Source: Sedimentibacter sp. SX930 (GTDB lineage Bacteria > Bacillota > Bacilli > Lactobacillales > Aerococcaceae). Taken from it: a stretch of DNA of 64,000 nt. The notes under the pieces were generated by a model. The model saw only the letters and a program-made list of their open reading frames with translations. It ran no database searches and had not been told where the DNA came from. Positions within the stretch are counted from its first letter, which is position 1. Each line of letters starts with the position of its first letter. Both the position numbers and the translations under genes were made by a program. Positions 38,289-57,165 of this stretch are shown in pieces. Location: assembly GCA_002155105.1 (NCBI GenBank), contig MUZD01000003.1, forward strand, positions 124,001-188,000. The letters are read 5' to 3'.

Positions 38289-38405
38289 GAGCGCGATGCT
38301 ATGCGGTAGGGGGCGAGCACTAAACGGATTAGCCGCAATGGGCTGCTTTTTGCCCATGTAGGCTAATCAGATTAGGCGGAACCCCCTGCATAGCAGAGCG
38401 CGTCT
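38289..38405. repeat. Multi-tier hairpin repeat element, copy A
   Basis: About 117 bp that folds almost end to end. Tiers from outside: GCGCgaTGCTATGC/GCATAGCAgaGCGC, AGGGGG/CCCCCT, CTAA/TTAG, GATTAGCC/GGCTAATC, ATGGGC/GCCCAT, with loop TGCTTTTT. No coding potential. It shares terminal GAGCGcGATG, the internal GAGCACTAA and the GCTTTTT loop with copies B and C. It is not a recognised insertion sequence. Strand is arbitrary. Confidence 0.8.
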
Positions 38406-38410
38406 AAGAG

Positions 38411-38548
38411 GAGCGCGATGCTATGCGGAGAGTGTGATGGATCCCGGGTAGAAATCGAGCACTAAGAGGACTAACACTAAACGGGCGCTTTTTGTCCGTG
38501 TGTGGTAGTCAGCTTAGGCACAGATTTCTGGGATTCAGAACACGTTTG
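38411..38548. repeat. Hairpin repeat element, copy B with an extra 5' terminus
   Basis: 38411-38428 repeats the first 18 bases of copy A, then a full element runs 38430-38548. Its tiers are GTGT/ACAC, GGATCCC/GGGAT, AGAAATC/GATTTCT, CTAAG/CTTAG, GACTAaC/GgTAGTC, ACGGGC/GTCCGT, with loop GCTTTTT. The stems differ from copy A but the pairing is kept. The arrangement suggests one element landed just inside another. Confidence 0.75.
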
Positions 38549-38581
38549 ATATGGCGCTAGGCTCCTCGGCAACTTAAGAGC

Positions 38582-38670
38582 ATTAAGCGGAATCCCCTGC
38601 AGGCCCGAGCGCGTCTAGGATGAGCGCGATGATTCGCGCTCATACATCCGGACGCTTGCGCTCGGGCCTG
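38582..38670. repeat. Repeat remnants and a nested palindrome (copy E)
   Basis: 38582-38599 looks like the 3' half of an element (TTAAGCGGAATCCCCTGC). From 38600, CAGGCCCGAGCGCGTC pairs with GACGCttGCGCTCGGGCCTG (38651-38670). Nested inside is ATGAGCGCG/CGCGCTCAT around an ATGATT loop (38620-38643). The sequence between copies (38549-38581) shows no feature. Confidence 0.6.
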
Positions 38671-38675
38671 GAAAG

Positions 38676-38827
38676 ATGGATAACTTTCCGTTATTCATCT
38701 TTTCTGCTCGCATCCGGCCCAAAGACATGGATAACTTTCCGATATCCATCTTTTCTTCCCGCATTCGGCCTAAATACATGGATAACTTTCTGTTATTCAT
38801 CTTTTCTGCTCGCTTTCGCCCCTAATC
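38676..38827. repeat. Tandem array of three 51-bp hairpin units
   Basis: Copies start at 38676, 38727 and 38778, each with ATGGATAACTTTC, a short hairpin (ATGGATAAC...GTTATTCAT or a variant) and then CTTTTCT plus a GC-rich spacer. In copy 2 the stem has changed on both arms to ATGGATA/TATCCAT, keeping the pair. A truncated fourth spacer follows to about 38830. The period is 17 codons, so both strands stay open by chance; I do not call a gene. Confidence 0.8.
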
Positions 38828-55269: not shown

Positions 55270-56333
55270 TCAATATCCCCTTGTTTCTCAGGCAGTTTGC
55301 CGATCATCGGGGCGGACAGGTACGCTTCCAACAGTTTGGAGCAGGCTTCCAAGGACTTCCGATGGGTACGTTCATAAGCATGGCTTGCATCGATCCCCGG
55401 TCCGATCAACGCGTGGCGGACGTCCCAACCCGCTTTCATGGCTGCAGAAGCATCACTGCCGTAAAACGGATAGATATCCAGCTTATAAGGAATCTCCTGT
55501 GATTCGCATAATCCGACCAACTGCTGCCGAAGTCCGAAGTGATAAGGACCCGATCCATCTTTCACGCAGATGGACACGGTGTATTCGTCAGTCTGCTGGT
55601 CGTCGCCCATCGCGCCCATATCGACGGCCAAATATTCCACCGTGTGCGGCGGCATATTCGAGTTGCCCCCGTAGCCGATTTCCTCATTGTTCGAAAAGAA
55701 GAAACAAGTCGTGTAAGGCAGTGTCAATTTTTCGTCCGCGATGCGGTGCAGGAACTGCAGCAGGATAGCCGCGCTGGCTTTATCGTCCAGATGCCTTGAT
55801 TTGATGTAACCGGACGGGGTAATTTCTGTCCGAGGCGCAAAGCTGATGAAATCCCCTACTCTGATGCCAAGCGCAGAGACATCTTTGGCTGTGTGCACTT
55901 CTGCATCCAGCCGGATCTCCATATTGTCCTGGTTTCGCTCAGCCGTACGTGCATCCTTATAGACATGGACGCTCGTTTGGTGCAACAGTATTGTTCCCGT
56001 CCAATCTTTCCCTGTGGCCGCACTATGGACCGTACAATATTCCCCATCTATGGAATGGTAGGTAAAGCCGCCGATCAGGTCGATTTTCAGTCTTCCGTCC
56101 GGTTTGATTGCGCGCACCATCGCTCCTAGCGTATCGATATGCGCTGTCACGAATCGTCTGCTTTGATCTTCAGCGCCTTTAACCGTCACCATCAGACTGC
56201 CCTTATGATTCCTTTCAGGTTGGTACCCCTTCCGTTTCAGGTTTTCATCCAAAAAATCGATGATTTCCGCGGTATACCCAGTCGGCGATGGGATGTTTGT
56301 CAATTGTTGGATCGTTTCAATTATGTCTGGCAT
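55257..56333 (-). CDS. M42 family metallopeptidase (aminopeptidase)
   Basis: 358 residues. Co-catalytic zinc ligands appear in TAHIDTLGAMV, SRHLDDKASAAIL, NNEEIGYGGNSNMP, DMGAMGD and the late DASHAYERTH histidine. This is the tetrahedral aminopeptidase/glutamyl aminopeptidase fold that trims peptides in the cytoplasm. The ribosome site is GAGGAGGAAA. Confidence 0.92.
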   Translation of the reverse strand: MPDIIETIQQLTNIPSPTGYTAEIIDFLDENLKRKGYQPERNHKGSLMVTVKGAEDQSRRFVTAHIDTLGAMVRAIKPDGRLKIDLIGGFTYHSIDGEYCTVHSAATGKDWTGTILLHQTSVHVYKDARTAERNQDNMEIRLDAEVHTAKDVSALGIRVGDFISFAPRTEITPSGYIKSRHLDDKASAAILLQFLHRIADEKLTLPYTTCFFFSNNEEIGYGGNSNMPPHTVEYLAVDMGAMGDDQQTDEYTVSICVKDGSGPYHFGLRQQLVGLCESQEIPYKLDIYPFYGSDASAAMKAGWDVRHALIGPGIDASHAYERTHRKSLEACSKLLEAYLSAPMIGKLPEKQGDIEWNN

Positions 56334-56489
56334 AAATTATTTCCTCCTCTTGCTGATTATATAAGTATAGCAAAAGAACCCAACAAAATGAGGCAAAAGC
56401 AATTAATTCAGACAAAAAATGGCGATTCAGGTAAAATAAGAAAAGAGGTTCCAGCGAACCCAACAAATTTTGGAAGCGAGGAATACGCA

Positions 56490-56957
56490 TTGTTGCATTT
56501 TGAATGGACACAAGACTTAAAATCCAAAACCTACAGGGATGCCTTGGACATCCGTAAAGAAGTATTCGTGGAGGAGCAGCAGGTGCCGGTCTCCATAGAA
56601 ATCGACGATTTGGAAGATAAAACCTTGCACCTCGTCGGATATGAAGAATTCATTCCGGTTGCTACTGCCCGCATTTATCCGATGGAAAACGGAAAATACA
56701 AGGTGCAGCGCGTCGCCATCCGCAAAGCCGTAAGGGAAAAGAAATACGGCAGCATCCTGATGCAGGAAATCGAAAGGCACGTCCGCAAACTCGGCGGCAA
56801 GCGCCTGTTCCTCGGAGCCCAAAACCATGCCATCGGTTTTTACGAAAAAGTCGGCTACAAAATCTGCGGCGAAGAATACGAAGAAGCCGGCATCCAGCAC
56901 CATGATATGGATAAAATGTTAGAGCGTGATGATTCGCGTTTAGGGGATGAGCACTAA
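56490..56957 (+). CDS. GNAT family N-acetyltransferase with repeat-derived C-terminus
   Basis: 155 residues. The acetyl-CoA-binding core is QRVAIRKAVREKKYGSILMQ, and FLGAQNHAIGFYEKVGY completes the fold; the YjcF/ElaA-like IRKEVFVEEQQVP start is clear. I use the TTG at 56490, with GCGAGGAA seven bases upstream. An in-frame ATG further upstream at about 56381 has no site. The last residues (ERDDSRLGDEH) and the TAA stop lie inside hairpin element C, so the native tail seems to have been replaced. Substrate unknown. Confidence 0.85.
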   Translation: MLHFEWTQDLKSKTYRDALDIRKEVFVEEQQVPVSIEIDDLEDKTLHLVGYEEFIPVATARIYPMENGKYKVQRVAIRKAVREKKYGSILMQEIERHVRKLGGKRLFLGAQNHAIGFYEKVGYKICGEEYEEAGIQHHDMDKMLERDDSRLGDEH

Positions 56958-57044: not shown

Positions 57045-57106
57045 GAGCGTGATGATTCGCGTTTGGTAGAGCGTGACAAATCCCGGTAGAAATCGAACAC
57101 TGAGCC
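57045..57106. repeat. Hairpin element 5' remnants (copy D)
   Basis: 57045 repeats the first bases of copy C (GAGCGTGATGATTCGCG). 57069 then begins a 5' half like copy B (GAGCGTGACAAATCCCGG then AGAAATCGAACACTGAG). The 3' half is missing; the mgtE terminator follows. Confidence 0.7.
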
Positions 57107-57110
57107 AAAT

Positions 57111-57165
57111 AAAACAGGCAATGGACACAGCCAAAGCGGCTGCTTTTCCATTGCCTGTTTTTTTG
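57111..57165 (-). terminator. Terminator of rluA-mgtE
   Basis: AAACAGGCAATGGA/TCCATTGCCTGTTT stem with an inner AGCC/GGCT and T runs on both sides, 4 nt after the mgtE stop. Confidence 0.85.

Follow-up and report, generated by a model that had tools for sequence, protein, structure and literature searches.

A family of tiered hairpin repeats, apparently undescribed, in Trichococcus and other lactic acid bacteria

Integron attC sites are folded on one strand, keep structure over sequence and are seated behind stop codons, with the core-site consensus GTTRRRY at the 3' end, and EFAR repeats consist of two adjacent stem-loops, about 170 bp long. Efa-1 of Enterococcus faecalis is given in its source (PMC2267715) as 163 bp with a pair of adjacent stem-loops. 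A second source (PMC3733652) mentions EFAR, notes that the stop codon of a gene often comes from the end of a GTAG REP, and places the REPs of P. entomophila and S. wittichi near gene 3' ends and believes them to be transcribed. The BOX elements found in Streptococcus pneumoniae and S. suis figure in PMC3049150 as modular repeats that form stem-loops if transcribed and are suspected of being non-autonomous mobile elements, and the L17 downstream element, like other candidate RNAs of Lactobacillales, is presented in PMC2864571 as a structured element behind a gene.

Here we compare with these systems a set of hairpins found in a window of 64 kb, the whole stretch of DNA analysed. A first-pass annotation, made from the letters of the window, had noticed three copies (A, B and C) and offered three readings: a non-autonomous mobile element, a structured RNA or a transcript-end module. 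The copies belong to a family of structured repeats that is apparently undescribed and occurs in the genomes of Trichococcus and many other lactic acid bacteria. We establish the family, its architecture, its covariation, the asymmetry in favour of its sense strand, its head-to-tail arrays and, in most genomes examined, the anchoring of its 5' end at stop codons.

Copies in the window and distribution of the family

The three copies lie where the first-pass annotation had put them, and each folds as one long tiered stem with an energy (A -66.2, B -53.6 and C -65.2 kcal/mol) far below that of shuffled sequence: set against 200 dinucleotide shuffles, z is -7.1, -7.0 and -9.8, and not one shuffle is as stable. 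The paired stem changes that the annotation quoted (e.g. ATGGGC/GCCCAT, ACGGGC/GTCCGT and ACGGCC/GGCCGT) are real and can be confirmed in the sequence. Details of its description need adjusting. The pairs of its "closing stem" exist but sit beside the apical loop, and the loop GCTTTTT, common to A, B and C, is not family-wide (CAGTTTG, CGGTTTTG, GTTTTTTG and others occur).

Further copies were sought with two covariance models, R1 from 16 copies of the own genome and R2 from 27 copies of six genera; the E-values of such home-made models are rough. Run over the window with default filters, both return only A, B and C up to E = 10. Fragments of further copies stand close by (Table 1). Directly 3' of the A/B array (38665-38825), a unit of about 51 nt that contains a short inverted repeat (GATGGATAACTTTCCGTTATTCATCTTTTC...) also occurs three times in tandem.

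Table 1. Hairpin copies, fragments and neighbouring features in the window
Feature	Coordinates	Strand	Evidence
Copy A, full-length tiered hairpin	38289..38405	+	fold; R1 103.4 bits, R2 87.6 bits
Fragment, 5' end of a further copy, GAGCGCGATGCTATGCGG	38411..38428	+	repeat family D3
Copy B, full-length tiered hairpin	38430..38548	+	fold; R1 128.4 bits, R2 112.9 bits
Degenerate copy, fragment with its middle and 3' end, GAGCATTAAGCGGAATCCCCTG...GAGCGCGTCTA	38578..38617	+	family D2; motif found at 38578 with one mismatch
Fragment, 5' end of a copy, GAGCGCGATGATTCGCG...CATCCGGACG	38622..38654	+	sequence
GNAT acetyltransferase ORF; last 11 codons and stop TAA within copy C	56139..56957	+	
Copy C, full-length tiered hairpin, at the acetyltransferase gene end	56922..~57037/57038	+	fold; R1 128.1 bits, R2 112.4 bits
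Fragment, 5' end of a further copy	57045..57064	+	repeat search
Fragment, 5' end of a further copy, GAGCGTGACAAATCCCGGTAGAAATCGAACACT	57069..57101	+	family D1; sequence
Terminator-like inverted repeat, then T run, 3' of C and its fragments	57108..57164	+	inverted repeat I1

Beyond the window, DNA searches of the own genome gave about 20 copies in addition to A, B and C, and R1 gave 29 matches there at E <= 0.1; across the genus all 13 genomes, the own included, hold 8-45 R1 matches at E <= 0.01. When 84,980 named species were scanned for an exact pattern, 61 stretches came back, all of them in Trichococcus. At the level of the bacterial family, R1 matches occur in 18 of 76 genomes, five of which fall outside the genus, and copies outside the genus have their tiers and loops unchanged and their letters different. 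Over the order Lactobacillales, with nine candidates scored per genome, R2 matches 85 of 395 genomes at E <= 0.001 and, weak matches counted, 31 of the 80 genera sampled; 38 of the 85 positive genomes were searched again and 37 of them match at E <= 0.0001. Two genomes of one genus have at least 95 and 90 matches among 97 candidates scored. The former, G268, was taken as Lacticaseibacillus, and one of its copies matches 18 plasmid records of Lacticaseibacillus paracasei and rhamnosus, Pediococcus and Lactiplantibacillus (best match 86.6%, in L. paracasei). Copies were inspected letter by letter in about 20 genomes. That the hairpins form a real family, as the annotation had supposed, is thus borne out by the covariance-model search, the further copies, the covariation and the intergenic placement alike.

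A phage collection searched with one Lacticaseibacillus copy gave no match, nor did viral contigs searched with two exact patterns, which diverged copies would escape; a phage route of spread was rejected on these results. Rfam has no match at the gathering threshold over the window or at 12 loci of relatives, and the three matches from a permissive Rfam search of four loci (E 0.5-0.74) all lie away from the R1 match of the locus concerned and look like chance. The literature search, which covered open-licence papers, found no description of the hairpin family.

Architecture, covariation and the folded strand

From the outside inward, the hairpin begins with 4 bp, a tandem G.A loop, 8 bp and a bulge on the 5' side, usually of 4 nt; there follow 7-8 bp, usually opening with AG, then two purine loops with about 7 bp between them, and further in a variable stem and the apical stem-loop. 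A typical copy is about 111-124 nt long. GA stands at positions 7-8 in 111 of 113 and 130 of 140 copies. Most Trichococcus copies measure 116-122 nt and the others aligned 107-119 nt, with up to 124 nt listed, so that length is almost constant (112-122 nt in most aligned copies) while the stems change. Folds and letters read in other genera give the same architecture with different stem sequence. Among the 98 Trichococcus copies in which the second and third tiers are both paired we count 31 combinations of the two; tiers have therefore been mixed between copies.

Judged by eye, the ends are mostly GAGYGYGA or GGATACGA on one side and ACRCGTTT or TTCAACTA on the other, the 3' end reading either CGTTT and then variable bases or TCAACTA / CGACTA. 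The outer tiers pair and thus make terminal inverted repeats, although the very end pairs poorly in GGATAC-ended copies. Stops in all three frames are found in 61 of 113 and 46 of 140 copies, where shuffled sequence averages 18.1 and 14.6, a pattern weaker than it appears since three fixed stops hit three frames by chance in about 22% of cases.

Some copies are composite. In eight from Trichococcus (L011, L013, L014, L043, L060, L066, L075 and L088) the 3' outer arm is swapped for a short hairpin, ACTCAAACGTCACAGTGCGACGTTTGAGGTCTTT or a near variant, which recurs inside L293; it would seem that one repeat family has here become nested in another. In others (L045, L066, L071, L079, L084, and inside L026 and L031) the 5' arm or the interior is broken by a short repeat resembling CTCTAAGCGATTNAAATCGCAAGAGCCATGACA. 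The same genomes also hold a sister class with the same outer tiers and another interior, similar to GACACCCGTACGTTGGAG ... GCGAAACGTTAG (L009, L022, L023, L025, L027, L050 and L185).

Do the stems vary as a conserved fold would require? Three alignments bear on this question: A3; A4, with 132 rows (116 distinct, a few of them incomplete copies) from a search of 88 Trichococcus loci; and A5, which keeps the best 150 of the 162 matches (140 distinct) that 87 loci yielded. Most loci behind A4 and A5 are among the best-scoring, and pair counts in A3-A5 lean towards structure because these alignments were fitted to a model. Cells are paired at 90.0% in A3, 94.9% in A4 and 93.7% in A5, as against 58.3%, 71.4% and 54.2% in shuffles and about 42% or less when the structure is slid along the alignment (no more than 41% for A4 and A5). 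None of 500 shuffles reaches the observed paired cells, double-changed cells or covariation score in any of the three. Counting the pairs that show any double change (36, 37 and 37 of 39 in A3, A4 and A5, reached by 2, 0 and 15 of 500 shuffles) gives a poorer measure, which does not lift A5 clearly above shuffles and lifts A3 barely. In A1, a MAFFT alignment of 16 copies that was not model-fitted, 28 of 39 pairs carry double changes, the structure in this case being predicted from A1 itself.

The first-pass annotation took such paired changes as showing selection for structure. In A5, 2038 cells are altered on both sides and G.U occupies 126 of 5383 cells; GC-CG and AU-UA flips are frequent, with few intermediates at many pairs. 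Because one-sided intermediates are scarce, it follows that both arms often change together, something that arm-to-arm copying during replication, known as quasi-palindrome correction, could bring about. Paired changes alone are therefore no proof of selection for structure.

Better evidence for selection lies in the strand asymmetry of the mismatches, together with the constancy of the skeleton across genera. Keeping in mind that the mismatch counts are concentrated in few pairs and that the copies are related, G.A outnumbers T.C by 98 to 13 in A4 and by 200 to 10 in A5, and G.U outnumbers A.C by 125 to 50 and by 126 to 54. Taken pair by pair, G.A exceeds T.C at 20 pairs in A4 and 22 in A5, the reverse holding at 5 and 3 and the others being tied, while G.U exceeds A.C at 22 and 25 pairs (reverse at 5 and 6). 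The trend is the same in three separate groups of A5 and in the Lacticaseibacillus genome, and RNA folding makes the sense strand more stable than the antisense in 110 of 113 and 134 of 140 copies. A G.A mismatch on one strand is a C.T on the other, and because most of the mismatches that remain set purine against purine when read on the sense strand, it is this strand that is kept foldable. The folded sense strand, then, is conserved, which is compatible with RNA and with sense-strand DNA alike, and the claim of selection for structure stands on the asymmetry and the skeleton.

Placement at genes and turnover at sites

Gene context was taken from a simple longest-ORF caller, with orthologous sites in several species counted separately. 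The resulting counts lean low, because the caller scored copy C as not lying behind a codirectional gene, which it does. Of 80 Trichococcus arrays 59 have a codirectional upstream ORF (16 do not, and 5 have no ORF in reach), and 51 of these 59 start within 12 nt of the stop codon. The 65 arrays of the other genomes except G268 divide into 55 with a codirectional upstream ORF, 9 without and 1 with no ORF in reach; 48 of the 55 start within 12 nt of the stop. Restricting the comparison to scorable arrays, that is, those with a codirectional gene upstream and any gene downstream, we find starts at this distance in 50 of 58 Trichococcus arrays and in 46 of 59 from all others, where random placement between both genes leads one to expect 14.9 (maximum 23 in 2000 draws) and 10.2 (maximum 19 in 2000 draws). 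At single-copy sites the base preceding the element is A in 47 of 49 cases in Trichococcus and in 46 of 55 elsewhere. Arrays run head-to-tail: neighbours share their orientation in 88 of 90 cases, and the spacer between them measures 2-9 nt in 82 of 88.

Host ORFs also use stop codons of the element itself, in the class at offset -8 and in copy C. The acetyltransferase gene reads into C (56922-56957), and the element gives it its stop codon and an 11-residue tail. The first-pass annotation had seen no coding potential, which holds for the element as such but overlooks the 11 codons over which the upstream ORF runs into C. As for the genes behind which copies sit, the 18 upstream proteins scanned include those of gatB, hisIE, mnmE, an IclR-like regulator, a serA-like 2-hydroxyacid dehydrogenase, ychF, degV, groEL, gor, glnA, purH, mnmG and others, some names coming from matches below the curated cut-off. 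By these predicted products the host genes are unrelated housekeeping genes with no consistent function.

Placement at stops is not one rule, since it fails in the Lacticaseibacillus genome: among the 23 arrays of G268, 6 have a codirectional upstream ORF, 14 do not and 3 have no ORF in reach, and none of the 23 lies directly behind a codirectional stop. By loose motifs and with no control, 5 of the 23 follow a terminator-like T run, 7 stand beside a reversed RBS-like motif and 11 do neither. The strand asymmetry persists in this genome and so seems independent of any use in 3' untranslated regions. In the window, A and B are themselves exceptions to placement at stops, standing between opposite-strand genes for a HAD hydrolase and a GHMP kinase. 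A transcript-end module, as the annotation had offered, thus describes most Trichococcus copies but neither A and B nor the arrays of G268. In that genome, whose contig starts with dnaA-dnaN, 30 of 41 listed copies are oriented against the fork if the terminus is assumed to be opposite; some of the copies share an array. The contig of Trichococcus G012, judged by ORF sizes, has no such start at dnaA.

How stable are the sites? Behind glnA, an element or remnant lies within a few bases of the stop in all 11 genus genomes in which the gene was found; by eye, one or more full copies stand in 7 of the 11, belonging to several subtypes, and the other 4 have remnants only. Ten further sites in three relatives gave 27 matches, about 23 of which show, again by eye, another copy, another subtype or a remnant. 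We conclude from these comparisons that sites last while their content turns over fast, and that presence is not fixed. Even two genomes of one species differ at an orthologous site (L183, L184), and internal deletions, as far as the eye can tell, run from a short match in one arm to its counterpart in the other. Where orthologous sites differ, the copy has mostly been exchanged or shortened by deletion in place, and fresh insertions do not account for the difference.

Empty sites are few. One is good: G008 (L303) has no element behind the IclR-like regulator where the own genome is occupied (L104), with flanks 93% identical, although loss could account for it as an alternative to a pre-insertion state. 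In the more distant G006 the L104 site gave three matches without recognisable element, in flanks that have diverged to 77-79% identity. The loci already collected contain no true empty site among the matches listed, showing differing subtypes at the same places instead; plasmid pairs yield deletion derivatives and shorter arrays but no empty sites, and the flanks of five Lacticaseibacillus loci are too diverged for an insertion to be placed. Flanking repeats of 5 nt occur at 10 of 49 single Trichococcus sites (shuffles: mean 2.2, maximum 7), where neighbouring fragments may explain them, and at 4 of 55 sites elsewhere (mean 1.6, maximum 5), counts that show no clean target duplication.

Candidate explanations and comparison with known systems

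We favour, with moderate confidence, the view that A, B and C belong to an undescribed non-autonomous family of interspersed elements of Lactobacillales whose recognised unit is the folded sense strand, and hence the first of the three readings offered at the outset. A putative trans-acting machinery would recognise that strand, as RNA or as single-stranded DNA, and would seat copies so that the 5' end falls where a gene ends. A copy in this position would lie in the 3' untranslated region or past the terminator and cause little harm, with stop codons at fixed positions near the 5' end limiting the extension of proteins. Recombination and slippage, acting between repeats and between arms, would then multiply, exchange and shorten the seated copies. 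In an mRNA the hairpin may also form a barrier to 3'-5' decay as a side effect. The search for Y1 transposases found no mobilising enzyme.

Anchoring at stop codons in the sense orientation also fits a function in mRNA. The main rival is accordingly a structured RNA at the mRNA 3' end that benefits the host, by blocking 3'-5' exonucleases or slowing terminating ribosomes and so acting on the mRNA life or the output of the upstream gene, a reading that we consider possible if on the unlikely side. It would account for the tight spacing behind stops in both sets of scorable arrays, for the identity of the sense strand with the folding strand and its excess of G.U over A.C, and for a glnA site kept across the genus despite exchange of copies; the REPs of P. 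entomophila and S. wittichi, near gene 3' ends and thought to be transcribed according to PMC3733652, point the same way. If a benefit to particular mRNAs were the whole story, however, we would not expect host genes without common function, a glnA site reduced to a remnant in 4 of 11 genomes, or a Lacticaseibacillus genome with 0 of 23 arrays behind a codirectional stop, where at the T-run (5 of 23) and reversed-RBS (7 of 23) sites, as far as loose motifs without a control define them, sense transcription is unexpected and both fold and asymmetry are unchanged. The failure of anchoring in G268 weighs alike against this rival and against a single placement rule.

An attC-type recombination site in single-stranded DNA, folded on one strand and used by a site-specific enzyme, would yield arrays and exchanges at fixed places. 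We think it improbable, even though the imperfect hairpin with conserved unpaired bases, a variable inner stem and one favoured strand, the frequent seat behind stops, the co-oriented and closely spaced array neighbours and the exchange of copies at fixed sites would all suit it: the ends, by eye, lack the core consensus GTTRRRY, and the arrays carry no gene cassettes. A REP/BIME-like system moved by a Y1 (HUH) transposase would likewise explain dispersed palindromes near gene 3' ends, mosaic composition and element stops used by host ORFs. It is nevertheless very improbable, since PF01797, found in 14 of 26 genomes, was not found in eight of the carriers searched (G268, with its at least 95 matches, G213, G219, G371, G019, G020, G033 and G053), and since the unit is about 111-124 nt in several tiers, not 20-40 bp. 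No GTAG or CGTC tag was seen by eye at either end of the copies compared, and a REP with RAYT was rejected on Y1 distribution, unit size and tag. Hardly credible, finally, is the absence of any selection on structure, with old insertions whose paired changes stem from arm-to-arm copying: it accommodates the excess of double changes over G.U intermediates in A5 (2038 cells against 126 of 5383) and the frequent flips with few intermediates, but leaves unexplained both the constant loop and length skeleton across genera and the purine-rich mismatches of the sense strand.

A bolder version of the favoured reading, in which a non-autonomous element is recognised by its folded sense strand, strikes us as quite doubtful. 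Here the family would be a new class of Lactobacillales mobile element in which the folded sense strand replicates and is placed at translation stops by a machinery that takes its cue from mRNA or nascent single strands and not from a target sequence in DNA, the stems being free to change wholesale and the skeleton alone being read.

Whatever its origin, the family is widespread in an industrially important order, yet has no Rfam match at threshold, and it provides a natural set of hundreds of hairpins, many at stop codons, in which shape is kept and sequence is free. Two questions thereby become testable in bacteria that are harmless to grow in the laboratory: by what route small structured repeats multiply when no transposase is known for them, and how termination and mRNA decay respond to a strong hairpin immediately 3' of a stop codon. 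There is also a warning, namely that paired changes in repeats can stem from arm-copying and not from selection alone.

Among known systems, the family shares with integron attC sites a single folding strand, a structure that outlasts sequence and a seat behind stops, and differs in its ends (by eye, without GTTRRRY) and in having no gene cassettes between units. The L17 downstream element is tied to one gene, whereas the hairpins here stand behind unrelated genes. As in a cis-regulatory structured RNA there is covariation for a conserved fold, but no consistent association with gene function; as in a classical MITE there are terminal inverted repeats, formed by the paired outer tiers. EFAR and Efa-1 are, like the hairpins, small interspersed palindromic repeats of a related bacterial family and are set apart, by description, by their two stem-loops as against one long stem in the copies folded here. 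BOX elements are likewise interspersed repeats of Lactobacillales that form stem-loops, though, compared by description, they vary in the presence and number of boxB between boxA and boxC, where the present elements have near-fixed length and variable stems. REP/BIME repeats of the GTAG and CGTC families are also interspersed palindromes with many copies near gene 3' ends; they differ from the hairpins in their short unit, and the arrays here run head-to-tail in one orientation. Although not a REP by size, tag or transposase, the family works like REP or BOX repeats.
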